Shown here: piece by piece, positions 8,715-33,125 of the stretch
Layout of the letters: each line of letters starts with the position of its first letter
How positions within the stretch are numbered: the stretch's first letter is position 1
Source of the DNA: a virus
Direction: 5' to 3' (one strand)
Virus record (IMG/VR): IMGVR_UViG_3300024273_001931
Coordinates: 1 to 33,125 of that record
Length of the DNA stretch: 33,125 nucleotides
Position numbers and translations under genes: made by a program
Notes under the pieces: generated by a model
What the model saw: the letters and a program-made list of their open reading frames with translations, nothing else
Database searches by the model: none
Told to the model about the DNA's origin: nothing

Positions 8715-8725
8715 GGAAGTAAAGA

Positions 8726-9058
8726 ATGGCAATTAACAACGCACTAATATTAGACACAGATACGACAATTCTAAGTGTTCCTGCAGGGAAAAAGTATGCC
8801 ATTACTACCTTATTGGTCTGCAATTATGCTGGCACAATTAGTACTGCAAATGATTCAAGTTTTGACATGCATGTAATAAAAGGGTCAGGAGGAGTAAAGA
8901 GTAATACAAATTTAATTTTGAATACTATTGAAATGCCAGCTCAGGATACTTTTACATTCAATGTAGAAAGATTAATTTTAGAAGAAGGTGACAGGATTGT
9001 ATTAAATAGTCCAGATGCCGACCTATTAAGCGCAACAATTAGTTATTTGGAAGTATAA
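8726..9058 (+). CDS. Small beta-rich structural protein, 110 aa
   Basis: A 110-aa protein with AAGGAA 7 bases before ATG 8726. Alternating hydrophobic residues through most of its length (ILSVPAGKKYAITTLLVCNY; LILEEGDRIVLNSPDAD) suggest a compact beta-sandwich. No family can be named. Small proteins with the S-V-P-A-G-K-x-Y-x-I pattern often accompany phage fibre genes. The stop TAA overlaps the start of the giant fibre as TAATG at 9056-9060, so the two are translationally coupled. A role as a fibre-joining or adaptor protein is only an inference from context. Confidence 0.8.
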   Translation: MAINNALILDTDTTILSVPAGKKYAITTLLVCNYAGTISTANDSSFDMHVIKGSGGVKSNTNLILNTIEMPAQDTFTFNVERLILEEGDRIVLNSPDADLLSATISYLEV

Positions 9059-12000: not shown

Positions 12001-15000
12001 TCGATTAGCTGGAATGAGCCAACTGGAGTAGTTGTAACACGAGCAAATGCAAAAGATCAGCTTGCTGCAAACAGAACTTTTATTGTCGAAGATGTGATTG
12101 CATATTTTAATGCAACAAATCCAGAAGTAGTATACGATGAAAAGCGTTTTCGTAGAGACACTGGTTACATTGTAGATGCGTTAATTTATGATGTACTTTA
12201 CGGAAGTACTAGTGCAACTATACAAGCTGCACAGTCGTATTTTACAGTAACATTAAGTCAACTAGGAGTAGAGCAAACATTTGCTACAATTGAGAGTTAC
12301 AGCAGACTACAATCTCTTGTAAGTTCAATTGTTCAAGGACAGCTTGTAACACCTACAACTGGAAATATACTAACACAAGATACCAGCAGCAATAACGCAT
12401 CTGGTGTCGAGAGTGATAAACTAACTAGACTCATTCAATACGTGATTGATGTTATGGAAGCAGGTAGTGTAGATGTATTGCCAGCAGTAACATATCCGTT
12501 GATCAGTTGGGTGTTTGGAGAAATTATCGATGCTTCAACAGCAATTTATGCGCAACGAAACAACTTTGCATCCGATACTACAGACTGGATACTTGCAAAT
12601 TATCCAGACTTTACATATGACAGAGTAAAATGCAAACGTGATGTAAGTCTAATAGTTGATGCAATTGCTCGCGATATTCGTTTAAATACAAATCACAATA
12701 CTATTGTTGCAGGCAACGCATACAGAAGAGGCACTGCTAGTGTAGTAGATGCTGGCCAACTGCCGGCAACTATTATGGCAATTAGATATCTTGGTACACT
12801 AATAGAAGATGCAGTTGCATCTAGTCCTACGCTGGTGCCTCGAGTAACTGATAGAATTGAAATATTAACTACTATCATGGAATATGGCACGCAGCCAAGT
12901 GAAGGTACAACATACCCTGCGCCGAGTATTGCAAGTCAAGAATTAATTGATAGTGCTAGACAGTTGCAAGATAACAGAACATTCTTAATTGAAGAAACTA
13001 TTGCATACACAAATTTCACATACGGGTCATTGGTTTATGATGAAGCCAAGTGTCGCAGAGATACAGGATACTTGATTGATGCTGTAACACACGACATGCT
13101 GTACGGTGGAAATCGTAGTATACTTATTAGTGCAAGAAGTTATTTTGATGACGGCGCAAGCCAAATTATTGGACAAGAATCTGAAACTATTGCTTCATTA
13201 GAGCATTTAAAAACAGTATCTACTTCAGTAATTGAAGGTATCGCAGTAACTCCTACAACAGGCAACAGCGAATCTCAAGTACTAGACGCGGCCTTCGGTA
13301 CATCAACTCAAAGTACAATTTCAGAAGGATTGTACGATGTAGTTATTAATGCAATCACAGCAGGTAATTTAGTAGGAACTCCGTCAAATAGTGATCCGGA
13401 TTACAATTGGTTGCCAGCTGCAATTCAAGAAGCTGCAAACAATCTAATATCATTGAACGCTACATTACAACAACAAGTAATTGATTATATCACTAATAAT
13501 ATTATTTCGTTTAGCTACAATGTTGCAAAATGCCAACGAGACACTAGTTATATTATCGATGCTGCATTATACGACATGATGTATGGCGGCAACAAGCAAA
13601 CTCGTCGTGCTGCCGAAGCGTATTATAGTAATGCTGTTATTGTAGGTCAAGAGTCTATTACTGAATTCACCTACAAATATCTAGCGTTGGTGCTAAGTAA
13701 TGTTGCACAAGACATTGCAGTTACTCCTAGCTTTGGAAATATCACGTCGCAAGTTATAAGCGGCAACGCTGGCAGTAGTGCAGCAGGTGCATACATCTTT
13801 ACTATGGTAGAAAAGATTGCAGACGTTATTAGACTAGGCAGTACTAGTTTCCTACCAACTGAGGAAAATCATTATTATTCAACACTTGGTGATACAGATC
13901 TTAATGTCAGACGTGAAATAATTCTTGCAGACCTTGCTGCAATTGAAGACGAATCTATTAGATTGCTTAACTTGGAATTTGGCGGAGTTGCAGAACTAAC
14001 CCTATTCCCTGGAGTACGATCAGTTGTTGAAAACACGCTAGGCAGTATGCAAAACGTGTCAACTGTAAGTACTTCGGGTCATGCATTTGAATATGTCGGT
14101 GCCGGTATTACATACAACGCACTTCCATTCTTTGGTGGTAGTCCGATTCCGGAAAACGAAATTATTGAAACAGACAGCGGCAAAGTATTTGCAGGCGGAA
14201 CTGTTGACCAAATTGGTAACTTTAGAGTTGGTAATTTCTTCCAAGTTAATGCACTCACTGGTGCAATTACACTTAATGCAAACGAAATTAATTTAAGTGG
14301 TCTTAGTAGTATTGGCCCGTTCCAGCGTGATGGTATTCCGGTTGGAGTGCAACTTAAAGAAGTCAGCAACAGCACAAACTTGGTTTCGTCACTTGGTCAG
14401 CCAGACCAAAACACTGTTCCGACACAGCTTGCAGTTGTTAGCTATGTCGAAAATAGATACTTGAATAAACTAACTGGCGGAACAGTTAATGGCGATGTTA
14501 CGTTTGCCGAAAACATCACAGTCGACGGCGGCAACTTAACAACAATTAGTACAACATTCAGTCTAATCGACGACAATGCCAATATTGTTAATTTTGCAGG
14601 CGGCGCAACTGAAATCAACATCGGCGCACCAATCGGTACAACCACTATCAACAACGATGTGGTAATTGACGGTACCGCTGATATTACTGGCGATGTTTCG
14701 ATCATAGGTGACTTTAACTTAACTATACCGGACGAAGTTAGTCAGGCATTTAATGTTTCACAGGGAACCGAAGATTACATCAGCATAGATACACGAACCA
14801 ATCTTGAAGTTGTTGCTTTTGGATCGGCTCCTCGTGTTGAAATTAACAATACAACCCAGTCTGACACTGGCACAGTTAACACAGGTGCATTAGTAGTTGC
14901 CGGTGGCATAGGTATTACTAAAAACCTAAATGTCGGCGGCGACATTTACTTTGAAGGTACTATTATTAGTACATCAAGTTCGTCACTAAGCCTGTTTAAC

Positions 15001-17621: not shown

Positions 17622-17645
17622 GTACCAATATTGGAGGCGGCCTTA

Positions 17646-20600
17646 ATGGCAACAAGAATTAAACACAAGCGCAGCTCAGTGGCTGACAAAATCCCTTTAG
17701 TTTCTCAATTAGAATCAGGTGAATTAGCACTTAACACCGCAGACGGTAAAATTTATTTACTGCGCGACGATAACACAGTGCAAGATATCACAAAAAGAAT
17801 TTTCCAAAAAGATACTCAAGTTCTTGTAACAGATGACGGCGATAGCTCACAAGCAACAGTTAGTGTACAGCTTAACGGAACCGAACAACTTAGTATAACA
17901 GAAGCCGGTCTAAATGTCAAGGATAATCTTGACATGGAAGACGCAAAACCAATTACCTTTAGAGAACTTACTGCGTCTGGCGAAGACGGTATTAGTATTA
18001 AAGCACCGGACACGTTGCCGCAGTCTTATTCATTAACACTGCCTCTTATCAACGGTACTATCGGACAACTATTGCAAACAAATGGCGCTGGCCAACTTGC
18101 ATTTGTGGATGCTGACTTGTTTGGCGGCAATGTTGTTTACGTATCAGAAGAAAACGGCAATGACGTAAATGATGGACAGAGCGCTCCGGTTAGAACACTC
18201 AAGCGTGCGTGCCAAATTGCATCAGGTATTGTTTATAATGCAGACGGCACACTAAGTAATAAGCGTGTTAATATTAAAGTTGCCGTTGGTGACTATACAG
18301 AAGACAACCCAATTGTGGTTCCGGATAACACAGTTATTAAAGGTGACGGTTTACGTGGTTGTATTATTCGTCCAGCTAATGCCAACTTGGACATGCTACG
18401 TGTACGTAACGCTTGTTACTTTGGTGAATTTACATTCCGTGACGGAGTTGATGCAAACTTTATTCCGCTTATTACAGCTGACTATGCTGTTGCATTTGAC
18501 GATCCGTATGATACAAATACCAGTCGTGTAGGTTATATCAATCTACCAAATACTCGCCCAACTATTACAACCTCACCGTATGTGCAAAACTGTTCTATTA
18601 TTTCGTTCTTAGGAATGAACGGCGCTAAGATTGACGGCTCCAAAGTCAACTCTCCAAACGTGCCAGTGTTTTCTATCGAAGCTGAAAATCCTGTTTTTGG
18701 ACTAACTCCTGAACAAGGTAAGTCGATGGTTGCAAACGCATTTACCATTCTCAGCTTTGGCGGCACAGGATGGCGTTTGACCAACGATGCATATGCACAG
18801 ATCGTTTCCTGCTTTGAGATCTTCCTGCTCAACGGTGTTTACACTCAGTCAGGCGGATATTGTTCAATCACCAACTCTGCTACAAACTTTGGATTGTACG
18901 CACTACGTTCAAGCGGTTACTCACCAAAGGCATTTGTGTTTGATCGTTCATTTGTAACCAGCACTGGCAGTTTTGAAGGCAATCAGACTATTAGTATTGT
19001 CGGTATTGAACGCGAGTCTCCGGTTGAAGAATTTGTAGTACGTTTCCGCAACCCAGAATATAAAACTGCATATACATTATTAAACTTGTACAAAGATGAT
19101 ATTGCGCAAGAGACTGTTGACTGGATCAATTTACAGATTGCCGGCGCAAGTCCGAGCATATGGGTGTCGTTTGATTACAATCAAGATAAATGTCAACGAG
19201 ATGTACAATTAATTGTAGATGCGCTTGCATATGACATTATGTTCAACAGCAACTACAGAACTATTAATGCAGGACTGGCTTACTACAGAGGCAATGCAAT
19301 TAACGTAGTAGACGACCAAAAAGCACAAACGATTGAATCTTTACAATATTTAAAAGATGTAATTGTTGGGGATGTATTTGGTAGCTCTGGAATAGCAGCA
19401 TCGAGAGCACAAGCTCTTATGGACGAATTAATTGATATTATTGACAACGGTACGGCCGCAGCTGACGTATATAGTTATCCAGACCCTACTGGATATAATA
19501 CTAGTTTCTTAGTTGGTTTTGGAGATGCAAGAGCGCAACTTACTACCAACAGGACATTCATTCAAGACGAAATCATTGCATGGGTTAATGATCAAATTGC
19601 AGGTGCTATCGACCCGTACTCAGCTGGATTTACCTACAATGAAGCAGCGTGTCGCAGAGACACTGGATTTATTCTTGATGCACTTACGTATGACCTAACA
19701 TACGGCGGCAACTTGCAAACTTACGATGCTGCACTTGCATATTTTGTAGGAGCAGTTGCTCAGTTTGGCCCAGGACAAAAAGATGAAACTATTGCTTCAT
19801 TCCAGAGATTGAAAATAGTCATCGAACAGGTAGTAGCAGAAACTGCGGTAAGTGTATCGTCGGGCAATTCAACTACCCAAGATACCAGCGGAACTCCGGG
19901 TAGTGCAGAAAGCATTACATTTGTTGGTAACAGAATAACTGATATCATCAGTTATATTGATTCCGACGGCGCAGTTCTTCCAACAAGACTTATTCCTGAC
20001 ATTTCGTGGGTGTCGGCAGAATTACAACAAGCAGGCAATGGACTGATTGCTGATAAGATTTTCATCAGCCAAACTGTTATTGAATATATTAACACACAAG
20101 TACAAGCAAACTTATGGTATAACTTTACATACGATTCTGTAAAATGCTACAGAGATACTCAACTTATTGTTGGAGCAGTTGCCCAAGATACATGGGATAC
20201 TGGCAACAGATATTCTCGTAGTGCCGGTCTTGCTTATTATAATAAAAATCTACAAGACAGTACGCAAATTAGTATTAGTGGACAAGAGCTACAAACAATT
20301 GCAGCAATTGAACAAGCAAGTGTAATTGCAGCTGGATATATTTCAGATCTTGATAACAACGTAAAGGCGTTTGTTGATAGTAAATTTGATATTGTAAAAA
20401 CAATAATAAATGATCCTACTGACTTGCCGGATCCGACCGAAGTAAGCTCTGAAGGCGATACTACCAACTCATTTAAGCCTGTGCCAACTCAGCAAGAATT
20501 TGATGCAGGTAGTCAAGTTAATGCCGATATTGATGTTATTACAATTGTTGATCACGGATATACAAACGGCGAAAAAGTTATTTATAATCCAAACGGAAAT

Positions 20601-23600
20601 CCCCCAATCCAAGGGCTTGATGCTGAACAAAACTATTATATTAAACTTATTAACCAAGACGAATTTAGTTTAACATTTGACGAAAGTCTTACATTTGATG
20701 TTAATATTATAAGTGCAAGCACAGGTACTCATAAGTTCTTGTCAAATGTTATTGAATTTATGATCGAAGAAGTACTTAGTACACACAGCTTATATCAGAC
20801 TCTTACTCTTGCATCAGGAACAGAAGACCACGTGTTTGTACCAGGACGTGCAATTGCAGGAACAACAGGTGCGTCAAACAACAGTGCAATTGTGTACATT
20901 TGGGAGCCAGCAGAACGTAGACTTGTTGTTAGTGTTGAGGAAGTGTTGGTTGGTAGTTCTTTGCTGCGCATACAGTTTGACGCAACAAGTATAATAACAA
21001 GTGACCATGCTGCATCACCAAATACCAGCATTGGTGTTAATGAAGCTTCTGCTCGTACAGGGCTAACTTCTAGCACATTTACTGTTACTGCTACAGATGG
21101 AAGCAGTAGTTTAACTAACTTAGGAAGTTTGCCAGAACAATCAATTTGGTTCCACAGACCGAGTATTGTTAACAGTTCGTCACACACTTGGGAATATGCA
21201 GGTTCTGGTACAGACTACAACGCTCTTCCACAAAACGGCGGCAACACCAGAGCAGAATTTGAACAGTTTGAAGAACTTCCGGGTCGTGTTTATTCGTCAG
21301 GTACAAACGAACTTGGTGACTTTAAAGTTGGTGACTTTATTACAGCGTTCAACAGAACTGGTAACATCACGTTCCGTAACAAAGTTCAAGTAGACGAACT
21401 TGATGCACTGCGTCTAACACTTTCGGACATTGCTATTGAAGAAATCTCAGCCAATGTTAATTTAGGCGATAACGAAATTGGCGGATCAAAAGATAGTAGA
21501 CTTCCAACTCAGCTTGCTGTTCGTAGTTTTATTGCTAACAGACTAGGCGGCTTTGTTGATAAAACAGTTTCGACCGCAGCAGTTCCAGGAGCAATTGTCC
21601 AACTTAACACCAACGGTCAGCTCAATGGCGACCTTATTCCTGCAACACGTCAGTTTACAAGCACAAACACTTTTGGATACTTGTCTAAACTAGATCAAGT
21701 TAACGAAATTCCGGCAGTTGATCTTAAAGCAGGAGATATTGCTACTGAAGAATACGAGCAAGTAGAACTTACACTGGATGCAAACATCTCTGCTGCCGAC
21801 GGTGCTGTTATTACACAGCCGGGCATTACCGGAGCAATTGGATATGCAAAAGGATCATATACATCCAGCGGAAACATTCTTGTTGCAAGTATACTTGGAG
21901 AATGGCAAGCCGGCGACGACAGCACTGGAGATCCTTGGGATGTTAGCGGCACTGCGCCAACTCTTTATATTGACGGAGTTGATTCGGGAATTAAGCCTAC
22001 TGTAAAAGGATCGAGTAGTGCAATTATAGACAACTTCTTCTTAAAAAGATCAGTCAGTAGTCAGTATTTGCTTTTAGAAAGCGATCAAACTTATACGTTT
22101 ACTAGTGTAGATCTTTCAAATGTAGAACGCATTAACGATGTTTCAACTTACACAACCAGCACTAATCATGACTTGAATGTAGGCAATACTGTACAAGTAC
22201 TATGTCCAGACGATGTGACATTTGCTGAAAACGGAATTGTTATTAGCACACCGAGTAATACTACATTTACCATGGCTAATTCTGATCCAATAGAGCCGAC
22301 CCTTGCAAGCAAAAGTACAACTGGTACAGTAAGAACTATTGTTACTAGTGCAGACGGCAATGCACAAGGTGCTGTAACTGAATACAGAGAAGGTATTGCA
22401 ACCAATGTCGACAACGCAAACATCTCCGGTGGCAGTGGCTATAGCCCGACCACTGCCAGAGCTACAGAAGTATATTCGTTTGTACCTCTAACAAGTATTA
22501 CAGGTACCGGTACCGGCGCATCTGCTGACATTACTATAACTGCCGGCCAAGTCACTGATATTGACATGCGCCGCGGAGGCATTGGATATAGCGTTGGAGA
22601 CCTACTCGGAGTTTCAGCAGGCAACGTCGGAGGTCAGGGCAGCGGATTCCAAATTGAAGTAACGGCAATTGAAACTCGTGTTTATGTAAATATTGTCGGC
22701 GGCGAACTGTTTGTTGCAAGTGCTTCGTCAGTTGACTTTATTGAAGACAACGAAGCAGTTACTAATAAATTTAATATTTCTCTAGATAACGTTATTTCCT
22801 TTAATTTCTTAGCAGGCAGCGACGGCGCTGGCGGCGCAGTTGATTACAGTGGAAACAGAATTAATGTTCCTGGACACGGATGGACTAATGGAGATCCTGT
22901 AACATACAACACAGCAGGCAATGTTCCTATCGGCGGAATGGTAAACAACTCAGTTTATTATGTAAAGTATATTGACAACGATACTATAGAAGTTTACGAA
23001 GATTACAGTCTTTTAAACAAAGTTGAATTCTTAACAACACCAGCAAACAACAATCACAATTTAACAAGATACGTAGTTAACACAACTGACAACAGTATTT
23101 TAGTATTAGGCCACGGACTAACGAATGGCGATGCTATTAGATTTGAATTAATAAATGCAGACGATAGTGCAAGTGTTGAATTATTCTCAGTATCCGGTGT
23201 TCCAATTATATCCGGCTCGCGATTCTTTGTAGGTAGTGTAACTACTAACTCAGTAACACTACACGGGCTACGCAGTGATTCGTTAAGCAGTATCAATGGA
23301 CTTGTTACAAACGCAAAAGATATTGATGCATCGGGCCAAGGCGATGTAGATATTATTCCAAACAATACACGAGTTAGTGAAGTTATTAATACTTCGAGTA
23401 GAATTAAAGACAACTGGAATAGTCTTGCAGTTACTAATATTGACGCAAGCAACATTATTAGTGGTACTATTAGTCCAAGCAGACTAGGAGCATCGGGTGT
23501 TGCAAGCACTGATACTTTCCTAAGAGGCGACAGTAGCTACAGCGTTGTAGTACAAACACTTGCAAAGCAAACCAGCACAGACAATCCGATTACCATAGTA

Positions 23601-26600
23601 GGTAGTAGTTTAAGTGGCGAATATTTTGGCGCAGTTGATATTGGTATTGCAAACGCAGACTACGCACCAGGCGGCACATTCTCGACTCTGGGTACAAGCA
23701 GATTCTTGCAATCACAGTTTGACGTTAGTGTAGGAGGAACCGGCGAAGTATTCATCAAATCTGGCGTTGTCGATGCCGGTACACTTGATAACTTAGATAG
23801 TGCGTACTTCTTAAATCCAAATAACTTATCTTTAGCTGTGCCTGTAACACGCGGCGGCACAAACATCACAACCTATGCGCAGGGCGACTTGCTGTACGCA
23901 CAAAGTACAGGTAGTTTAAACACACTAAACATTGGTAGAAGCAACAACTTCGTTAAGTCAAACGGATCAACTCCGGAATGGGGAACTGCACTAGATCTTG
24001 CAGAAATTCTAGATATTGGCTCTGCAACACTGTCGTCAATTAGTACTGGTTCGGGTAGTTTGTACAATACCAATGTATCGAGTTTAGACATTGGCGGCGC
24101 AGCAGAAAACATCAAACTAGGTGCAAGTACTTCCACAAGAAATATTACTAGCTTTATATCAAGTTTTGATGCAACCGTAAGTCAAGATGTTGCTGTAAAC
24201 CTTGGTAGCTTAACACAAGCTACTAATGATAATATAGCAAACGGTGAAAAAGAAATACCAATGGCAAGCACTGCTGGTATTCTATCAGGCATGATTGTTA
24301 CAGGATCAGGAAACATTCCTGCAAATACAACAGTTAGTGGTGTTACAGCTGACTACATCTATCTAAGCACAGACACTGTAGGTACACTTCTAACAGGAAC
24401 TACACTAACGTTTGCTTACACTCCGTTTACGCTAGGCATCAAAGCAGGCGACACAATTAATATTGCAAGCAGCACTGTAACCAACCTCGACGGTAGTTGG
24501 CCAGTAAGCGGCGCAACAGTTAATGCAACATCGTTTACAGTAAGAACTAATGCAAATGTAACAGCAAATCCAAGCAATGGCAAAGATTTAGCATTGGTGG
24601 TTACTAAAGATAATACAATGGTTATCAAAAACCGTAATGTAATTTTTGGTAGTGCAGAAGCAAGTTCGTCTCCAGTTGACGCAACTCTAAGAGGCGAAGA
24701 TGCAATTGGTGACAACACCGCAGGCGGCAACTTTGTTGTTCAAGCAGGCATTGGTACTGGTAATGCAACAGGTGGTAGCTTTGTTGTTAAAACTGGACAA
24801 ACCAGCACAACCGGCGATATTAAGCATACTGCAACCGAGCGTCTACGTATCAACACTGCTGGTAAAGCAACCTTTACAGGTGAAGTTGCGGTTGCCGGAA
24901 CACTAAGCACAACCGCAACAACTGTAAACTTGTTGGATACTACAGCAACAAGAATCAACATGGGTGGCGCAGCTACTATTGTTGAAATAGGTGCTGCTAC
25001 TGGTACAACTACTGTACACAACAATGTTGATATTGACGGTGATCTAAATGTAGACGGCGGCGATATTAGAACCAATGTTACTACATTTAACTTGCTAAAC
25101 ACCACTGCAACAACTGTTAATGCGTTTGGTGCAGCAACAACAATTGAAATTGGTTCTGCCACAGGCACTACTAATATCAACAACAACCTAGTAGTCGAAG
25201 GCAACCTAACTGTAAACGGCACTACTACTACAATGAACAGCACAACTATTAGTGTTGATGACAAAAACATTGAGCTAGGAAGTGTTGCTTCGCCAACTGA
25301 TGTTACAGCCGACGGCGGCGGCATTACATTAAAAGGCACAACTGATAAAACTATTAATTGGTTGAATGCAACCGACAGCTGGACATCAAGTGAAAACTTT
25401 GAACTAGCAAGTGCCAAGGCATACCGCATCAACAACATCAGTGTACTTAACAGTACAACATTGGGTACAGAAGTTGTAAACTCAAGTCTACAACAGCTTG
25501 GCACAATCAATACTGGTGTGTGGCAAGCCAGTGTTATCAACAGTACATATGGCGGCACAGGTGTAAACAACGGTGGCAGAACTATCACAGTTGCAGGAAA
25601 CTTTACTACTACTGGTGCCAACACACTAACACTTAATACAACAGGCGCAACAAGTATTACATTACCAACAAGTGGTACACTTGCTATTACAGGCAATCCA
25701 CTAAGTCAATTTGCTTCAACTACTAGTGCGGAACTACGCGGCGTATTAAGTGACGAAACTGGCACAGGTGTTGCAGTATTTGCTACAAGCCCGACATTTA
25801 CTACCGGTATAAATGCTGCCAACACAACAATGTCATTGTTTAACACAACTGCATTGGCTGTAAACTTTGCAGGTGCTGCTACTAATATTCAAATTGGTGC
25901 TGCTACAGGTACTACTAATGTCAACAACAACTTGGATGTTGATTTGGATCTAAACGTAGACGGCGGCGACATTACAACTAATGCCACATCGTTTAATCTA
26001 ATCAATGCTAATGCTACAACTGTAAACTTTGCAAAAGCAGCAACTACATTGGATATCGGTGCAGCAACTGGTACTACTAGCATCAACAACAACTTAGATG
26101 TTGACTTGGATCTAAATGTAGACGGTGGAGATATTACAACCAACGCTGCTACATTTAACCTGATTAATGCTAATGCAACAACTGTAAACTTTGCAAGCGG
26201 TGCAAGTGTTATTAATATGGGTGCAGCTACAAGTTTAATTACAATGGCTGACGACCTAAGAGTTAATGGTAATATCACAATTGGACCAGGTGGTAGTTTA
26301 ACACTTGACAATATCAACGATACACCAATTGGTAATGTAACTCCAAGCACCGGCGCATTTACTACACTTACTTCAAATGGATTAACAACATTTACTAACA
26401 GCACTGCTTCAACTAGTGTAGCAAGTGGTGCAGTTGTTGTAACTGGCGGAGTAGGCGTTGCAGGAGATGTGTATGCTAATAAATTCGTTGGAGATGTTCC
26501 GGCATCAAACCTATCAGGCACAATTGCAAATGCTCGTATTTCTGCAAGCAGTGTTACACAGCATCAGGCAAGTATTACTGGAACCGGCACACTAAACTCA

Positions 26601-29321
26601 GGTAGCATCTCTACTGGCTTTGGCAACATCAACATCGGAACTAGCATATTTACTGGTGTTGGCAGTGGATTAACTACTATCAACGCAAGCGAATTAACAT
26701 CTGGTACTGTACAAGGTATACGACTGGGTGGCAACCAATCAATGGCTGGTGTCAAGACATTTACTGATGCTACAGATGCTACAAGCACAGTTGGCGCAGC
26801 AGTTGTCTTAGCCGGCGGCCTGGCAGTTGCAAAAAATATTAGATTTGGCGGAACTATATTTGGCAACGGTAGTGGTCTAACTACTATCAATGCTACCAAC
26901 ATCAGCAGCGGTACTATAAATGATGCACGTCTTCCAACTACACAAACTGGAAAAACATTCAGCAGCGATATTACTACTAACAGTCACAAAGTTGGAAGAG
27001 GCGGCGGCAACAGTGCAACTAACCTTGCAGCAGCAGGTGGCCAATTAATTAGTTCAGGAACTGACAACAGTGTATTTGGTGTTGGGGCAATGGCAGGACT
27101 TGTTACTGGTACTGACAACACTGCACTTGGTAATAGTTCACTTGCTTCACTAACTGGCGCAACACACAACACTGCGGTAGGTAATGACAGCCAGGCACAA
27201 CGAACTGGTATTGGCAGCTACAACACCAGTGTTGGTGCTCAGAGCATGGCAAACAGCACAGCAGGCGCAAGCAACAGTGCATTTGGATATCAAGCCCTGG
27301 AGTTAACAACTGGTAACAACAACGTTGGTATTGGTGCGCTAGCTGGTGACAGCTTGACCATCGGTAATGACAACATTATTATTGGTTATAATGCGCAACC
27401 TAGTACAGTACTTACCAGCAACGAAATTACAGTTGGTACTGCAACTCAAAACAGTTTGAGAGTACCGGGTGTAAATTTAAGTGTAAGTACAACAACACTT
27501 AACTTCGGTGGTACAACAGGCTTCGGTGGTATCGGTACTAACCTAACTGCACTTAACGCAAGCAACTTGTCAAGCGGAACTGTTCCAGATGCACGTATAG
27601 CACAAACAAGTGTAACACAACACCAAGCGGCAATTACCGGAACCGGTATTCTAAACTCAGGTAGTATTACTAGTGGGTTTGGAAATATCAACATCGGTGC
27701 ATCCAGCCTAACTGCAACTGGTACTGTGAGCCTAGGCGCAACTAGTTTCAACGCAAGTGATGTTACTGGTATTGCTGATTTGTATGTAGACGACCAGATT
27801 ATTTCAACTGGCGATACAGACACATACTTGCAATTCCATGCACCTGATCAATGGCGTGTTGTCACAGGCGGTGTAGAAAGACTAGAAGTCAGCAACACCT
27901 CAGTTATTATTGCTAACGATCTTACTGTAAACGGCGCAGCCGGAGTATCGGGTGTTGGTACCAACTTAACTGCACTTAACGCAAGCAACTTGGCAAGCGG
28001 AACTATTGCAAACGCTAGAATAAGCGGTAGTTACACAAGTATTACAGGCGTTGGCGCACTTGCTGCTGGACAGATTACATCTGGCTTTGGCAACATCAAC
28101 ATTGGTACAAGTATATTTACTGGTGTTGGCAGTGGTCTAACCAGTGTCAATGCTGCTACACTAGACAGTATTGATAGTACAAGTTTTGTACGCAGTGATG
28201 CAAACGATACTGTAACCGGATTACTTACACTAAGTCGTAGTGGAGAAATGCTACGATTTGAAGATACAAATGCAGCTGGATCTCCGTATCTAAGTTTCTA
28301 CCAGGGTGTTACACGCCGCGGCTATGTACAAATGCTAAACGGCGGCACAATGCGTATTGCTAGTGATCAATTAGGTACTAGAGTTGATATTGGCACTGGG
28401 ATATCTGGCCTGACATACACGTCGGGCGGCACTCACACAGTATGGCACAGTGGCAACGATGGCGCTGGTTCGGGACTTGATGCTGATACACTAGATGGCG
28501 TTAGTAGTGCTAGTTTCTTACGCAGTGATGCTGCTGACAGCTTTAGTGGAACATTAAGTGGTGCTGGCAGTATCAACATCACTGGCACTGTACAAGCTGC
28601 TAGCTTTACTGGTAGCGGTACTGGATTAACTGGTATTACTGCTGATAATGCTAACACACTTGATAACTTGGATAGCACTGCATTTTTAAGAAGTAATGCC
28701 AACAACCTATTAGCTAGCGGAACCTACAGTACAAGTGGCAACATCGAAGCCGGTCGTGGATCGGGCAGTGTTGCTATGACTGTAAATGACGGGTATGGTA
28801 ATGCAAACGTAGCATTTAATCACAATGCCGGAATTCCTGGTACCACTGGCAGTAGTTGTAGAATTGTAACAAACGTTGATACTGCAACTGCCGGAATGGC
28901 ATTCCAATTGGGCAACAGCACTGTAGCTGGAGTAGCAATTGGGTTAACAGCTATACTATCATTAAATACAAGCGGCGCATCTGTTAACGGTTCGTTTGTT
29001 GCATCCGGAGAAGTAACTGCTTATTCAGACGCACGCCTAAAAGAAAATGTAAAAGTTATTGCCGATCCACTAACCAAGATACTAAGTATACGCGGTGTAA
29101 CATTTACTAGAAACGACCTAGAAGATACTGATAGAGTTCATATGGGTGTTATTGCTCAAGAAGTCGAAGAGTATTTCCCAGAAGTTGTAAACACTATGGA
29201 AGATGGTACTAAAACTGTTAACTACGGTGCTATGGCAGGTGCGTTTATTGAATCGTTCAAAGCTCAGCAAAGTCAAATTGACGAACTCCGTTCTATGGTT
29301 CAAAAATTACTGGATAAATAA
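17646..29321 (+). CDS. Giant fibre/adhesin-like protein 2 with C-terminal S74 self-cleaving chaperone, 3891 aa
   Basis: ATG 17646 (MATRIKHKRSSVADK) is chosen over the in-frame TTG 17631 because GGAGG lies 8 bases upstream. By residue: about 1-60 is an N-terminal attachment-like domain with ESGELALNTADGKIYL, common in phage fibres. About 160-435 is a beta-helix (VGDYTEDNPIVVPDNT, TTSPYVQNCS). About 508-900 holds three C-x-R-D repeats. About 1175-1310 is the junction shared with protein 1. About 970-1890 also carries four HG-x-T-N-G-type domains and a GGIGYSVGDLL-type domain. About 2420-2870 is a tandem beta-shaft. About 3140-3250 has YadA-head-like NTALGNSSL / NNVGIGALAG repeats. Residues 3794-3891 are the intramolecular chaperone, with SDARLKEN and GVIAQEVEEYFPEVV. 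Ser3794 and Lys3799 fit the S74 dyad, so a 98-residue fragment would be released after trimer folding. Confidence 0.93.
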   Translation: MATRIKHKRSSVADKIPLVSQLESGELALNTADGKIYLLRDDNTVQDITKRIFQKDTQVLVTDDGDSSQATVSVQLNGTEQLSITEAGLNVKDNLDMEDAKPITFRELTASGEDGISIKAPDTLPQSYSLTLPLINGTIGQLLQTNGAGQLAFVDADLFGGNVVYVSEENGNDVNDGQSAPVRTLKRACQIASGIVYNADGTLSNKRVNIKVAVGDYTEDNPIVVPDNTVIKGDGLRGCIIRPANANLDMLRVRNACYFGEFTFRDGVDANFIPLITADYAVAFDDPYDTNTSRVGYINLPNTRPTITTSPYVQNCSIISFLGMNGAKIDGSKVNSPNVPVFSIEAENPVFGLTPEQGKSMVANAFTILSFGGTGWRLTNDAYAQIVSCFEIFLLNGVYTQSGGYCSITNSATNFGLYALRSSGYSPKAFVFDRSFVTSTGSFEGNQTISIVGIERESPVEEFVVRFRNPEYKTAYTLLNLYKDDIAQETVDWINLQIAGASPSIWVSFDYNQDKCQRDVQLIVDALAYDIMFNSNYRTINAGLAYYRGNAINVVDDQKAQTIESLQYLKDVIVGDVFGSSGIAASRAQALMDELIDIIDNGTAAADVYSYPDPTGYNTSFLVGFGDARAQLTTNRTFIQDEIIAWVNDQIAGAIDPYSAGFTYNEAACRRDTGFILDALTYDLTYGGNLQTYDAALAYFVGAVAQFGPGQKDETIASFQRLKIVIEQVVAETAVSVSSGNSTTQDTSGTPGSAESITFVGNRITDIISYIDSDGAVLPTRLIPDISWVSAELQQAGNGLIADKIFISQTVIEYINTQVQANLWYNFTYDSVKCYRDTQLIVGAVAQDTWDTGNRYSRSAGLAYYNKNLQDSTQISISGQELQTIAAIEQASVIAAGYISDLDNNVKAFVDSKFDIVKTIINDPTDLPDPTEVSSEGDTTNSFKPVPTQQEFDAGSQVNADIDVITIVDHGYTNGEKVIYNPNGNPPIQGLDAEQNYYIKLINQDEFSLTFDESLTFDVNIISASTGTHKFLSNVIEFMIEEVLSTHSLYQTLTLASGTEDHVFVPGRAIAGTTGASNNSAIVYIWEPAERRLVVSVEEVLVGSSLLRIQFDATSIITSDHAASPNTSIGVNEASARTGLTSSTFTVTATDGSSSLTNLGSLPEQSIWFHRPSIVNSSSHTWEYAGSGTDYNALPQNGGNTRAEFEQFEELPGRVYSSGTNELGDFKVGDFITAFNRTGNITFRNKVQVDELDALRLTLSDIAIEEISANVNLGDNEIGGSKDSRLPTQLAVRSFIANRLGGFVDKTVSTAAVPGAIVQLNTNGQLNGDLIPATRQFTSTNTFGYLSKLDQVNEIPAVDLKAGDIATEEYEQVELTLDANISAADGAVITQPGITGAIGYAKGSYTSSGNILVASILGEWQAGDDSTGDPWDVSGTAPTLYIDGVDSGIKPTVKGSSSAIIDNFFLKRSVSSQYLLLESDQTYTFTSVDLSNVERINDVSTYTTSTNHDLNVGNTVQVLCPDDVTFAENGIVISTPSNTTFTMANSDPIEPTLASKSTTGTVRTIVTSADGNAQGAVTEYREGIATNVDNANISGGSGYSPTTARATEVYSFVPLTSITGTGTGASADITITAGQVTDIDMRRGGIGYSVGDLLGVSAGNVGGQGSGFQIEVTAIETRVYVNIVGGELFVASASSVDFIEDNEAVTNKFNISLDNVISFNFLAGSDGAGGAVDYSGNRINVPGHGWTNGDPVTYNTAGNVPIGGMVNNSVYYVKYIDNDTIEVYEDYSLLNKVEFLTTPANNNHNLTRYVVNTTDNSILVLGHGLTNGDAIRFELINADDSASVELFSVSGVPIISGSRFFVGSVTTNSVTLHGLRSDSLSSINGLVTNAKDIDASGQGDVDIIPNNTRVSEVINTSSRIKDNWNSLAVTNIDASNIISGTISPSRLGASGVASTDTFLRGDSSYSVVVQTLAKQTSTDNPITIVGSSLSGEYFGAVDIGIANADYAPGGTFSTLGTSRFLQSQFDVSVGGTGEVFIKSGVVDAGTLDNLDSAYFLNPNNLSLAVPVTRGGTNITTYAQGDLLYAQSTGSLNTLNIGRSNNFVKSNGSTPEWGTALDLAEILDIGSATLSSISTGSGSLYNTNVSSLDIGGAAENIKLGASTSTRNITSFISSFDATVSQDVAVNLGSLTQATNDNIANGEKEIPMASTAGILSGMIVTGSGNIPANTTVSGVTADYIYLSTDTVGTLLTGTTLTFAYTPFTLGIKAGDTINIASSTVTNLDGSWPVSGATVNATSFTVRTNANVTANPSNGKDLALVVTKDNTMVIKNRNVIFGSAEASSSPVDATLRGEDAIGDNTAGGNFVVQAGIGTGNATGGSFVVKTGQTSTTGDIKHTATERLRINTAGKATFTGEVAVAGTLSTTATTVNLLDTTATRINMGGAATIVEIGAATGTTTVHNNVDIDGDLNVDGGDIRTNVTTFNLLNTTATTVNAFGAATTIEIGSATGTTNINNNLVVEGNLTVNGTTTTMNSTTISVDDKNIELGSVASPTDVTADGGGITLKGTTDKTINWLNATDSWTSSENFELASAKAYRINNISVLNSTTLGTEVVNSSLQQLGTINTGVWQASVINSTYGGTGVNNGGRTITVAGNFTTTGANTLTLNTTGATSITLPTSGTLAITGNPLSQFASTTSAELRGVLSDETGTGVAVFATSPTFTTGINAANTTMSLFNTTALAVNFAGAATNIQIGAATGTTNVNNNLDVDLDLNVDGGDITTNATSFNLINANATTVNFAKAATTLDIGAATGTTSINNNLDVDLDLNVDGGDITTNAATFNLINANATTVNFASGASVINMGAATSLITMADDLRVNGNITIGPGGSLTLDNINDTPIGNVTPSTGAFTTLTSNGLTTFTNSTASTSVASGAVVVTGGVGVAGDVYANKFVGDVPASNLSGTIANARISASSVTQHQASITGTGTLNSGSISTGFGNINIGTSIFTGVGSGLTTINASELTSGTVQGIRLGGNQSMAGVKTFTDATDATSTVGAAVVLAGGLAVAKNIRFGGTIFGNGSGLTTINATNISSGTINDARLPTTQTGKTFSSDITTNSHKVGRGGGNSATNLAAAGGQLISSGTDNSVFGVGAMAGLVTGTDNTALGNSSLASLTGATHNTAVGNDSQAQRTGIGSYNTSVGAQSMANSTAGASNSAFGYQALELTTGNNNVGIGALAGDSLTIGNDNIIIGYNAQPSTVLTSNEITVGTATQNSLRVPGVNLSVSTTTLNFGGTTGFGGIGTNLTALNASNLSSGTVPDARIAQTSVTQHQAAITGTGILNSGSITSGFGNINIGASSLTATGTVSLGATSFNASDVTGIADLYVDDQIISTGDTDTYLQFHAPDQWRVVTGGVERLEVSNTSVIIANDLTVNGAAGVSGVGTNLTALNASNLASGTIANARISGSYTSITGVGALAAGQITSGFGNINIGTSIFTGVGSGLTSVNAATLDSIDSTSFVRSDANDTVTGLLTLSRSGEMLRFEDTNAAGSPYLSFYQGVTRRGYVQMLNGGTMRIASDQLGTRVDIGTGISGLTYTSGGTHTVWHSGNDGAGSGLDADTLDGVSSASFLRSDAADSFSGTLSGAGSINITGTVQAASFTGSGTGLTGITADNANTLDNLDSTAFLRSNANNLLASGTYSTSGNIEAGRGSGSVAMTVNDGYGNANVAFNHNAGIPGTTGSSCRIVTNVDTATAGMAFQLGNSTVAGVAIGLTAILSLNTSGASVNGSFVASGEVTAYSDARLKENVKVIADPLTKILSIRGVTFTRNDLEDTDRVHMGVIAQEVEEYFPEVVNTMEDGTKTVNYGAMAGAFIESFKAQQSQIDELRSMVQKLLDK
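19169..20300 (+). repeat. Three C-x-R-D repeats in giant protein 2
   Basis: Copies begin near 19169 (CQRDVQLIVDALAYD), 19629 (CRRDTGFILDALTYD) and 20124 (CYRDTQLIVGAVAQD). They share the layout of the eight copies in giant protein 1, including the NR-x-F-I-x-x-E linker before copy 2 and the Q-x-x-T-I-x-x-x-x-x-L-K helix after copies 1 and 2. The third copy is the most divergent. Confidence 0.85.
24903..26250 (+). repeat. Tandem beta-shaft repeats in giant protein 2
   Basis: Five units carry the pattern T-T-x-x-x-x-L-(L/I/F)-x-x-x-A-x-x-(V/I)-N-x-x-x-x-A, then a(T/N)xx(E/Q/D)IGAATGTT, usually with N-N-N-L-D-V-D-L-D-L-N-V-D-G-G-D linkers. DNA similarity is high between the units around 25920-26060 and 26080-26200 (shared stretches such as TTGGATCTAAA and GCTAATGC). 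Confidence 0.85.
26541..28160 (+). repeat. Three dispersed GFGNINIG shaft units
   Basis: Copies near 26541-26690, 27606-27710 and 28038-28160 share S-I-T-G-x-G-x-L, SGFGNINIG and (copies 1 and 3) TSIFTGVGSGLT. Copies 1 and 3 are close to identical at DNA level across CTTTGGCAACATCAACAT and the following 50 bases. Confidence 0.85.
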
Positions 29322-29584: not shown

Positions 29585-29962
29585 ATGAAAAGCAAATACG
29601 AAGTACTAAATGTAGACTTAGCACAAGAATACACAAAAGTAAGAAAACTAGAAGCACTAAAACATCTAGGGCTTGATGAAGCACTTTATGATCTGGTAAT
29701 TGGCGATATCAACGCACTTGATATACCAGAGGACGATGACCGGTTGCACTGGATCAATGTGATTGCAGCAAAGGCAGCAGCAGATCTTTTAACAATTGGC
29801 AAAGTACAGCCAGAGCATATGATGGCAATGGCAGCATTACCTGCAATTGACTTTAAAGAATGTGTAAAAATTGCAACAACCAACGCACGTAAATTGAACA
29901 CTGATACAATTGATGCAGAAAAATCATTAAATATTGACACTCTTTCAAACGCAGTTGTTTAA
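29585..29962 (+). CDS. Unrecognised 125-aa helical protein
   Basis: A 125-aa acidic, mostly helical protein from ATG 29585 with AGGAG 6 bases upstream. Segments such as YTKVRKLEALKHLGLDEALYD, cut short of a clear domain, and DRLHWINVIAAKAAADLLTI suggest a small helical bundle. No signal peptide or membrane segment is seen. I do not recognise a family. It ends in TAATG, overlapping the glycosyltransferase-like gene by one base, so the products are probably made together and may act together. Confidence 0.75.
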   Translation: MKSKYEVLNVDLAQEYTKVRKLEALKHLGLDEALYDLVIGDINALDIPEDDDRLHWINVIAAKAAADLLTIGKVQPEHMMAMAALPAIDFKECVKIATTNARKLNTDTIDAEKSLNIDTLSNAVV

Positions 29963-30576
29963 TGAAAATTGCAATATGCGTTCCTGCACGTGATACTGTT
30001 CATGTGGGGTTTGCTATTTGTTTAGCAAACCTCACTGCATCACTACAAAAGAACAACATTGAATATCATTTGCTGGTCAATCTTGGAACAGTAATTCCAC
30101 AACAACGAAACACTCTTGTGGACGAAGCAATACAAGTAGATGCTACACATATTCTTTGGCTGGACAGCGACATGCATTTCCCGTCAACTACTGTGCAGCA
30201 ATTACTAGCACATAATTTGCCTATAGTTGCAGCAGCATACAGCACACGACTAAAGCCGCAAAGAAGTGTTGCGTTTTTAGACAAGGACGATCTAACAAAT
30301 CGTCTAACCAAGAACACCGGTGTACATTTGGTATTTGCAGTTGGTATGGGATGTATGTTAGTTGATATTGAAGTATACAAGTATGTTCAAAAGCCATGGT
30401 ATCAATACTTGTACAACAAAGACACACAGGACTTGAGTGGCGAAGATATATATTTTTGCAAAACAGCAGGCGATGCAGGATACGACATTTATATTGATGC
30501 AGACTTGAGTAACGACATTGCACATTACGGAACAAAAGCATTTTTGATAGGCGAAACAGATGACCACAGCATTTGA
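29962..30576 (+). CDS. GT-A fold glycosyltransferase-like protein, 204 aa
   Basis: A compact GT-A-type glycosyltransferase candidate. The N-terminal strand is MKIAICVPARDTVHVGF (residues 1-17). IPQQRNTLVDEA (45-56) is the R-N-x-(L/I)-V region before the donor site. HILWLDSDMHFP (63-74) carries a D-S-D at 68-70 fitting the metal-binding DxD. SGEDIYFCKTAGDAGYDIYI (159-178) is the acceptor-side E-D motif typical of phage GT2-like enzymes, and H188 lies in AHYG. It is expected to use a nucleotide sugar with a divalent metal in the host cytoplasm. The acceptor is unknown; virion protein or DNA are both possible. At 204 aa it is minimal, with no membrane segment. It overlaps the next gene by 17 bases. 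Confidence 0.8.
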   Translation: MKIAICVPARDTVHVGFAICLANLTASLQKNNIEYHLLVNLGTVIPQQRNTLVDEAIQVDATHILWLDSDMHFPSTTVQQLLAHNLPIVAAAYSTRLKPQRSVAFLDKDDLTNRLTKNTGVHLVFAVGMGCMLVDIEVYKYVQKPWYQYLYNKDTQDLSGEDIYFCKTAGDAGYDIYIDADLSNDIAHYGTKAFLIGETDDHSI

Positions 30577-33125
30577 CCGATTTGATCGATTTGGACAAAA
30601 AACATATCAAGCACAGGATATTCTAAAAAATCATATTTTAGAAAAATTTCCTGTGCATTATACAACTGATGTAGAAGATTATAGTGTTGTTGAACAGTAT
30701 GCTGATCAACACGAATTTGTCTGGCTTGTAGAACAGGGTATTGAATCACCAAGAAGTTTTCCTTGGTTTTTTAAACCGTCCAGCGAACAAAAAGATGCTG
30801 TACACTTGTTTCCTTACATCTATAAATCAAGCAAGCGTGTTAAAAGTTGGAAGAAAGTTCAGCTGGTTCCTACAAGAATCAAAACAGATAAAAAAATAAA
30901 ACAAAACCATATTTGTGGAATTTACGATTTCTACAACGGAAAAACCAAGTTTGATATTTTTTATCTAGGTGACGAATCTGAGCAGTATACTAGTTTGGCA
31001 GAACGTTTTAGAAATATCAAAAGAGTCAGCAGCTATAATCAAGCAAGAGAGCTTTCTGAAACAGATATGTTTTGGGTAGTGCCCAACGATATTGATGTAA
31101 GTCCTATATTTAAATTCAGCTATCAGCCCGACGACTGGAGTCATAAATTTACCCACGTGTTTGTAAATGGAAATAGCTTTAGGGATGGAATTATTTTAGC
31201 ACCTAAAAGTTACGAACCGTCTGATAGAGAATTAAAATACAGATATTTTGCAAATAAAAAAGAACTTAACATTGTTGCAAGTTATCCTAAAAAGTATCCA
31301 ATGTATTACTTTAACAGTTATGAAGAATACAAAACTGCACTTGAAACAGAACAAAGCGATTTGTTTTGGTGGGTACCCGGTGATGTAGAAGTTGAGAATC
31401 CATTGGTGTTTACAACTTATTTTGAACATAAAAATCAATACGACAGAACTTCCAACCACGTATTTTTAAACGGAGATGCATACGACGGAATTGCGCTGTT
31501 TAGTAAACATAGTCCTGTAACTGAAAAAGAATTTAATCACAGGTTTTATGCAAATAAAAAAGAACACGAGGTACTTGCAAGTAGGCCAAAAAAGTTTGAT
31601 CAGTTTGTAGTTACTACTTACGCTGACTACAAACTGGCAAAGCAGCATAGTAAAACAGAAATGTTTTGGTGTATTCCTGCTGATGTAAATCCTGTGTTTG
31701 AGTTTGAAACTTATTTCACACATCATAATCAATATGATCGTAATATGACACACGTTTTTTTAAACGGTGAAACCTATGACGGCATTGTATTGTTTAGTAA
31801 AAATATTGATATAACTGAAAAAGAATTTAATCATAGATTTTACATTCAACAAAAACAATGGAAAGTTTTAGCCAGTACTCCTATCCTGTACGATGTGTTC
31901 TTAATAGACAGCTACGACGAATACCTACACGCATTGGAAAACAGCACAACTGATATGTTCTGGATGAGCAGCAGAAATATTGCACCTAATAATAAACTGC
32001 TTGATACATATTATATTTCTCACCACCAATCACAAGATAAAAGTAAAACACATGCATTTGTCCACCAAGTACAAAATAAAAATCTGTACAACGGATTGTT
32101 CCTATGTAGTAAGCAGAATCTTCTATCACAGCGCGAAGTAGAATATAGATTTCCTGCAGAACGTATTGAGCACGACGTTGTAGGAAGCTGCGGCGCTGCG
32201 TATGATGTATATGCTATTGATTCATATGACGAATATTTAAACGCATTAGAAACCAGTACCACCGAAATGTTCTGGATGAGTAGTGCTAATATCACTGCTA
32301 CAATACCAGACATGTATTTTACGCATGACAACGAATACGACAGAACTCAAAATCATACGTTTTTGCATTACAACAACAAACGTAATGGGTTATTTTTAAT
32401 GAGCAAACATGCAATTGCTACACAAAAAGAAATTGAACATAGATTTCTTGTTAATGCAAAAGAATGGAATATTGTAGCAAGTGGTAGTGTTGAGTATGAT
32501 GTATTTGAAATTGATAGTTATGAAGAATACCTAACTGCATTAAATGAATCAAACACCGAAATGTTCTGGATGAGTAGTGTTAATATTTCTGCTACAATAC
32601 CTGACATCTATTTTACACACGACAACGAATACGACAGAACTCAAAATCATACATTTATACATCGAGTAGACAACAATGACCATTACAATGGATTATTTTT
32701 ATGCAGCACACATACTCCTCTTAGTAAACAAGAAGTAGATCATCGTTTCCTTGTTAATGCAAAGCAATGGGATATTGTTGCAAGCGGTAGTGTTGCGTAT
32801 GATGTATATGCTATTGATTCATATGAAGAATACCTAAATGCATTAGAAACCAGTACCACCGAAATGTTCTGGATGAGTAGTGCTAATATCACTGCTACAA
32901 TACCAGACATGTATTTTACGCATGACAACGAGTATGATCGCAAACAAAATCATACGTTTTTGCATTACAACAACAATCGTAATGGGTTATTTTTAATGAG
33001 CAAACATGCAATTGCTACGCAGAAAGAAATTGATCATAGATTTATCATTAATGCAAAAGAATGGGATATCGTAGCAAGTAAAGAAGTGCAATATAATAAG
33101 TTTACAATTAATAATTATAACGATT
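30560..33125 (+). CDS. Large tandem FW-repeat protein (partial, runs off the right edge)
   Basis: An uninterrupted frame from ATG 30560 (MTTAFDRFDRFGQKTYQAQD) to the window end, at least 855 codons with no stop. The start overlaps the end of the glycosyltransferase gene by 17 bases. After a first, degenerate unit (around 30640-30890) come seven roughly 100-residue units. Each has DSY(D/E)EYxxALExSxTxMFW at the front, YF-x-H-x-N-x-YDR and (N)H-x-F in the middle, NG(L/I)(F/L)L-x-SK, (E)(I/V/F)xHRF, and closes with E-W-x-I-V-A-S and YDVF or YDVY. Repeats of this kind sit beside glycosyltransferases in marine phages, but I cannot name the family. Antiparallel frames over the repeats are shadows. 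Unit boundaries are near 30952, 31301, 31607, 31901, 32212, 32506 and 32812. Confidence 0.9.
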   Translation, partial: MTTAFDRFDRFGQKTYQAQDILKNHILEKFPVHYTTDVEDYSVVEQYADQHEFVWLVEQGIESPRSFPWFFKPSSEQKDAVHLFPYIYKSSKRVKSWKKVQLVPTRIKTDKKIKQNHICGIYDFYNGKTKFDIFYLGDESEQYTSLAERFRNIKRVSSYNQARELSETDMFWVVPNDIDVSPIFKFSYQPDDWSHKFTHVFVNGNSFRDGIILAPKSYEPSDRELKYRYFANKKELNIVASYPKKYPMYYFNSYEEYKTALETEQSDLFWWVPGDVEVENPLVFTTYFEHKNQYDRTSNHVFLNGDAYDGIALFSKHSPVTEKEFNHRFYANKKEHEVLASRPKKFDQFVVTTYADYKLAKQHSKTEMFWCIPADVNPVFEFETYFTHHNQYDRNMTHVFLNGETYDGIVLFSKNIDITEKEFNHRFYIQQKQWKVLASTPILYDVFLIDSYDEYLHALENSTTDMFWMSSRNIAPNNKLLDTYYISHHQSQDKSKTHAFVHQVQNKNLYNGLFLCSKQNLLSQREVEYRFPAERIEHDVVGSCGAAYDVYAIDSYDEYLNALETSTTEMFWMSSANITATIPDMYFTHDNEYDRTQNHTFLHYNNKRNGLFLMSKHAIATQKEIEHRFLVNAKEWNIVASGSVEYDVFEIDSYEEYLTALNESNTEMFWMSSVNISATIPDIYFTHDNEYDRTQNHTFIHRVDNNDHYNGLFLCSTHTPLSKQEVDHRFLVNAKQWDIVASGSVAYDVYAIDSYEEYLNALETSTTEMFWMSSANITATIPDMYFTHDNEYDRKQNHTFLHYNNNRNGLFLMSKHAIATQKEIDHRFIINAKEWDIVASKEVQYNKFTINNYND
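30952..33125 (+). repeat. Seven-unit FW repeat array
   Basis: Units of about 294-349 bases start near 30952, 31301, 31607, 31901, 32212, 32506 and 32812. The 290 bases from 32198 match those from 32795 (offset 597 bases) nearly exactly, while the unit between them is clearly more divergent. The last unit is cut by the window edge. Confidence 0.9.

Follow-up and report, generated by a model that had tools for sequence, protein, structure and literature searches.

Organization of the locus

The window analyzed here is the whole 33,125-base stretch of the linear virus record IMGVR_UViG_3300024273_001931, and its right end carries two overlapping genes on the + strand: open reading frame (ORF) A, encoding a putative GT-A glycosyltransferase, and ORF B, which contains a long array of tandem repeat units and is open to the right edge. 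By sequence comparison these units are truncated paralogues, of common ancestry, of a domain (CT) that is predicted to adopt the GT-A fold and ends the ORF B protein outside the window; the units have lost the DxD motif of that domain. The viruses hosting such genes are uncultured, mostly T4-like, aquatic viruses of bacteria.

ORF A (29962..30576) codes for 204 amino acids, with DSD at residues 68-70, GED at 160-162 and a histidine at 188. An initial annotation, made from the DNA alone, had proposed a minimal GT-A enzyme candidate with this DSD. D68, D70, G160-E161-D162 and H188 are invariant across 13 homologous sequences. These three elements would correspond to the DxD, the acidic catalytic-base motif and the C-terminal histidine of an inverting GT-A enzyme. 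The protein matches the phrog_1574 profile (E 1.1e-22, residues 2-195), its own profile retrieves yeast Mnn9 from the PDB (3zf8, E 1.2e-6), its Pfam Anp1 score (27.4 bits) lies under the gathering cut-off of 28.8, and homologues are present in 93 phage records. The DxD and the profile match are shared with Mnn9/Anp1 (GT62) and with the phrog_1574 proteins, some of which come from cyanophages and carry a glycosyltransferase annotation; compared with Mnn9/Anp1, however, ORF A is half as long, has no transmembrane anchor described and is paired with a repeat gene. ORF A was also considered as a CT homologue and rejected: there was no detectable similarity (hhalign 0.1%), and the two therefore belong to different families.

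The ATG of ORF B (30560) precedes the TGA of ORF A (30574-30576), so that the genes share the 17 bases (30560..30576) reported by the initial annotation; its frame of at least 855 codons made of roughly 100-residue repeats was likewise recovered (30560..33124). The N-terminal region (30560..30991) is conserved in 12 homologues and reads VWLV...FPW...LVPT; as an eleventh, degenerate unit it was set aside, the similarity being just a hint (hhalign to the unit 16%, E 0.0016). It is followed by seven units, found at E 1e-18 to 1e-40 by a hidden Markov model (HMM) built solely from units of other contigs, which also picks up 16 residues from the start of an eighth and gave zero matches in 100 shuffles of the ORF B protein or in its reversed form. 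Unit 1 (30992..31279) has VVPND at the place of the DxD and, together with about 15 preceding residues, is the most complete GT-A-like copy (CT HMM positions 6-93, E 5.7e-8). Units 2 (31280..31579, DLFW WVPGD), 3 (31580..31873, EMFW CIPAD) and 4 (31874..32182, DMFW MSSRN) precede the three that were modeled with AlphaFold2, namely units 5 (32195..32479, EMFW MSSAN), 6 (32483..32782, EMFW MSSVN) and 7 (32786..33076, EMFW MSSAN). Units 5 and 7 are 92% identical, indicating a recent duplication, and the remaining units 29-71%. The (M/L)FW motif, first described as invariant, holds in every full unit of the window and is near-invariant overall, with F conserved in 96% and W in 92% of 239 units sharing less than 70% mutual identity.

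The rest of the gene was sought beyond the right edge and found in the contig L009, whose first 55 bases are identical to the end of the window (33071..33125, the assembly junction). L009 1-1623 continues the frame with three more units, then CT (about 235 residues, VDADA) and a stop. Since repeats may mislead assemblers, an uninterrupted homologue was also sought. In L162, whose ORF A is 85% identical and whose DNA is 77% identical, 10 units and CT lie in one ORF of 1372 amino acids, to which the ORF B of the window aligns at residues 1-850 and L009 at 833-1367, the 18-residue overlap being the shared 55 bases. L010 carries 11 units and CT, and a unit tree pairs its first four with units 1-4 of the window and its last three with the three of L009. 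From the 55-base identity, the colinearity with L162 and the pairing with L010, we infer that the full gene has about 1377 codons and encodes the N-terminal region, 10 units and CT.

Origin and predicted fold of the repeat units

All seven CT domains score against an HMM of the units built without CT (E 5e-9 to 6e-8 for six of them and 9e-4 for one), and the 80 remaining proteins of those contigs do not. The CT HMM matches the units in return, most strongly the first ones. Profile-profile comparison of unit and CT gave 96% (hhalign, E 4.5e-9). In the alignment the T-E-M-F-W strand of the unit falls on the T-D-M-[IF]-W-[IV]-V-D-[AG]-D strand of CT, identifying the FW motif with the strand that in the parent domain comes just before the DxD, and many CT domains themselves read MFWVVDGD. 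The DxD is present in none of 235 units and its first aspartate is gone in all of them, with the last D or N of the motif kept in 158. Units 5-7 were modeled with a predicted local distance difference test score (pLDDT) of 95.6 and a predicted template modeling score (pTM) of 0.87, and in the models the secondary-structure elements of the unit follow each other as in CT, minus the first helix-strand pair (a1-b2) and the C-terminal helices. The GT-A fold of the units is a prediction. The initial annotation had offered three suggestions for ORF B, namely a sugar-binding scaffold, an acceptor and a string of degenerate glycosyltransferase-like domains, and the third gains support from both the homology to CT and the predicted structure. 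The units had no credible match in Pfam, PHROGs or NCBIfam, in line with the earlier impression of an undescribed repeat: no well-described domain fits by sequence, and the fold appears to be GT-A with the catalytic motif gone. No lectin fold occurs among the matches listed, a listing that excludes nothing.

CT, in turn, retains what the units lack. A D[GA]D is conserved in at least 82 of 88 proteins, as counted with a strict regular expression that missed six, and both aspartates are invariant in an alignment of 59 rows. The AlphaFold2 model of the last unit with CT (pLDDT 92.4, pTM 0.85) places CT among GT-A glycosyltransferases, with a Foldseek E of 9e-6 and, against B4GALNT1, a VIA Z of 11.5 over 141 residues; 12 of 18 CT members give sub-threshold matches to Pfam Glycos_transf_2. 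CT reached the threshold of no Pfam, PHROG or NCBIfam family, and CT profiles had no match among PDB sequences. With the GT2-like GT-A enzymes of the PDB (SpsA, WrtF, SunS/ThuS, B4GALNT1) it shares the fold, as modeled (Z 10-11.5), and a DxD after a hydrophobic strand; it differs from them in fitting no family model, in a conserved FREC-KL...W helical C terminus and in the tandem pseudo-domains at its N-terminal side. Sequence and model together indicate that the terminal CT enzyme is probably active in sugar attachment.

Selection, pairing and distribution

The array is under purifying selection. The ratio of non-synonymous to synonymous substitution rates (dN/dS) between L002 and L003 was 0.076 for the array (1127 codons) and 0.051 for CT, and between L003 and L005 0.033 and 0.067, respectively, giving a range of 0.03-0.08 for the array at dS up to 1.1, on which ground neutral decay of the repeats was rejected. 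In the same 239 units H60, G70, L73 and E84 are 99% and K94 91% conserved; such non-catalytic residues point to a specific role, structural or binding, maintained without the catalytic motif.

The association of a glycosyltransferase with the repeat gene, first noticed in this single record, recurs. In a count that started from ORF A alone and not from the repeats, a B-type gene comes immediately after ORF A in 97 of 98 relatives; 90 of these genes contain repeats and seven contain none. Four of the eight without repeats were read, three showing the N-terminus and CT and one no recognizable CT; the other four were assigned by length and first residues. ORF A and CT are thus the constant pair and the array, with 0-16 units, the variable part. 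ORF A and the repeat gene overlap by 1-58 bases in 89 of 90 pairs, by four bases in 55 and by 17 in four. Arrays of two or more units end in CT in 120 of 125 cases, and three of the other five run off the contig. In L173 (6590-9136) a stop follows right after unit 7 of a seven-unit array lying directly before the NUDIX gene; the absence of CT there is either a true loss or a deletion.

CT occurs at 595 or more loci in IMG/VR. Searches with CT, ORF B and the stand-alone paralogue (tblastn) found no match among 50,697 deposited phages at the sensitivity used, and 84,980 bacterial and archaeal genomes yielded 12 CT loci. In the CT tree, forms with no repeats are nested among repeat-bearing ones, and Photorhabdus, Bdellovibrio-like and other bacterial CT branch outside the phage clade as repeat-free outgroups. 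Three loci from metagenome-assembled genomes (MAGs) nest within the phage clade and may be viral contigs.

Genomic neighborhood

Upstream of ORFs A and B lie two giant ORFs, at 9058-17478 (2806 amino acids) and 17631-29321 (3896 amino acids), the latter ending in a Peptidase_S74 chaperone domain; both are likely fibre proteins and obvious candidates for a glycosylated acceptor. Portal, head protease and major head protein genes are found farther upstream, and the nearest relatives of the head protein are those of jumbo phages, for instance Vibrio phage 2.275.O, PA5oct and GAP32 (65-70%). The first member of the cluster is an ORF of 125 amino acids (29585..29962, + strand), phrog_1409-like and of unassigned function, whose stop overlaps the start of ORF A by one base; such a gene is conserved 5' of ORF A in most loci with that stretch present. 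On the 3' side of ORF B, L009 and its relatives carry a NUDIX gene, a head-tail adaptor and a tail sheath, as well as tail sheath(-stabiliser)-like and virion structural genes on the opposite strand. The order phrog_1409-like gene, ORF A, ORF B and NUDIX recurs in loci with those stretches present. The T4-type late promoter TATAAATA had one match in the window against 2.7 expected and none near ORFs A and B, leaving late transcription unsupported. The head genes include a third candidate sugar transferase (2138-2878; phrog_30607, E 3e-31), and its product also has a weak match to phrog_4603 (alpha-2,3-sialyltransferase, E 1.4e-4).

Proposed function and alternative explanations

On balance, and with modest confidence, we read ORFs A and B as a two-glycosyltransferase operon of a T4-like, jumbo-related phage, probably serving virion decoration, in which the array is a dead GT-A scaffold that binds the acceptor for CT. 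ORF B would be a second GT-A enzyme, with CT preceded by tandem truncated GT-A domains devoid of the metal/nucleotide motif, and ORF A a small GT-A enzyme supplying another transfer step. The array would act as a non-catalytic scaffold, binding or spacing the acceptor and keeping it in place for CT; the likeliest acceptor is a fibre protein of the virion with a repetitive sequence, or the glycan growing on it. The operon has giant tail-fibre-like genes on one side and, on the other, genes for the neck, the tail-sheath stabiliser and the tail sheath. Coupled translation of the overlapping ORFs would keep both enzymes together. The architecture is secure. As to function, the location, the conserved non-catalytic residues and the fact that multi-domain glycosyltransferases generally make use of additional domains suggest two active enzymes, CT and ORF A, and an array that binds a virion component as the acceptor. 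The initial annotation did not foresee that ORF B itself ends in its own DxD glycosyltransferase-like domain outside the window, which makes ORF B an enzyme with an array and not solely a scaffold for ORF A. A more specific form of the proposal, tentative and rather doubtful, is that a large family of glycosyltransferases from uncultured phages has built a modular rod, 1-16 units long, from its dead copies. On virion fibres the rod would serve as an acceptor-binding ruler determining the sites or the number of residues to be glycosylated, and its unit number would be an evolvable dial for length or specificity.

Several observations weigh against this interpretation. The position of the genes among virion genes shows neither that their products are incorporated in the virion nor that the acceptor belongs to it, and glycosyl transfer or binding is a prediction, from sequence and models, for the members of these families. 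The top Foldseek rows of the units are GT-A glycosyltransferases, but at E 0.07 or worse, and their VIA Z stays below 8 (maximum 6.6, for 96 residues at 3.2 A), so that the claim of a GT-A fold for the units leans mainly on their homology to CT. For CT, the nucleotidyltransferases IspD and MobA fit the fold almost as well, and the best Glycos_transf_2 matches lie below the cut-off (E 0.0018-0.0044; 17.4 bits vs. 23.3), so that the glycosyltransferase activity is deduced from fold and DxD. The array size drops to zero in some loci, making the array dispensable for the core of ORF A and CT, and in L180 (2934-3977) the gene 3' of ORF A encodes the N-terminus and two units with no CT. In other lineages some CT genes are surrounded by radical-SAM (twitch-domain) genes, and a different acceptor could be used there.

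The array might instead be a virion-associated adhesin, its dead GT-A units acting as lectin-like modules on host glycans and CT being a passenger or a receptor trimmer. The place of the gene between fibre and neck/sheath genes, a fibre-like variability in unit number, the near-invariant H60, E84 and K94 in the absence of the DxD and the units without CT of L180 would all suit such a role, which we nonetheless consider unlikely: the A and B pair is kept in 97 of 98 ORF A relatives and CT still in seven of the eight repeat-free ones, which makes the enzyme the part that stays constant, these proteins are also found in radical-SAM clusters away from tail genes, and no S74-like chaperone was seen in the ORF B protein. 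Nor do we think it probable that A and B alter host surface glycans (lipopolysaccharide or O-chain) for superinfection exclusion, with the array anchoring or spacing the enzyme. Glycosyltransferases do have a precedent in the host-recognition region of marine T4-like phages, a superinfection-exclusion role having been proposed for those of pelagimyophages (PMC7029224), and radical-SAM and other modification genes adjoin CT genes in other lineages; the ORF A lineage, however, shows strict synteny with virion genes, and an export or membrane signal was not noticed, none having been specifically sought.

Two further explanations concern the units themselves. If they were still active or donor-binding through a non-DxD mechanism, ORF B would be a polymerase with many active sites, and the retained GT-A core topology, a dN/dS as low as that of CT and the D or N that still closes the motif in 158 of 235 units could be read in this way; the loss of the first DxD aspartate in all 235, together with the missing a1-b2 segment of the nucleotide-binding half and C-terminal helices of CT, makes this highly improbable. 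A neutral, functionless expansion of repeats, to which the range of 0-16 units and the recent duplication of units 5 and 7 might testify, is hardly credible in view of the dN/dS of the array at such dS values, and all 13 ORF A-lineage loci first scored with an upstream gene in place have kept their repeats.

The scaffold proposal has partial parallels. More than one GT-A domain per chain or complex also occurs in structural neighbours, namely Escherichia coli K4CP chondroitin polymerase, heparosan synthase and human CHSY3-CHPF, but those have two full-size domains, whereas in the present proteins a single full domain comes after as many as 16 truncated units, all of one type. GT-A enzymes are ubiquitous, and we know of no other whose domain has been truncated, has lost its catalytic motif and has been copied into long arrays before a working copy; searches on tandem or non-catalytic glycosyltransferase domains in phages returned nothing relevant, and such an array is not described in the literature searched. 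Glycosyltransferases are likewise conspicuous accessory or core genes of other large aquatic myoviruses, belonging to the host-recognition cluster in pelagimyophages (PMC7029224) and to the core genes in moraphages (PMC12619734), and the available parts of these two sources contain no repeat array or GT-A-derived tandem domains. The intermediates with 0-16 copies offer a natural series for how an enzyme fold becomes a repeat-protein scaffold, in a large protein family now named that sequence libraries had missed. The family also hints that uncultured aquatic jumbo-related phages, whose glycan decoration has been little described, glycosylate systematically and possibly on the virion.

Related genes outside the ORF A lineage

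Outside the ORF A lineage, 23 of 34 repeat-bearing CT genes for which the upstream gene or gap was scored follow a CT paralogue of about 300 amino acids. In L008 (e.g., 1848-2768, 8025-9944 and 10536-11822), L004 and L006 the repeat/CT gene lies in a large putative modification island with several twitch-domain radical SAM, B12 radical SAM, methyltransferase-, acetyltransferase- and desaturase-like genes. On bacterial MAG contigs, the paralogue of about 300 amino acids and CT are adjacent in L094 and L095 (5039-6684) and fused in one ORF in L092 (3051-4637) and L093 (5125-6675), with radical-SAM-like genes close by in L092, L093 and L095. Stand-alone CT homologues were found in three Photorhabdus species (L099 5998-6702, Photorhabdus bodei; L100; L101), where, lacking repeats, they adjoin what on reading appear to be other glycosyltransferase and transport genes; Photorhabdus is thus a culturable source of a stand-alone CT homologue.

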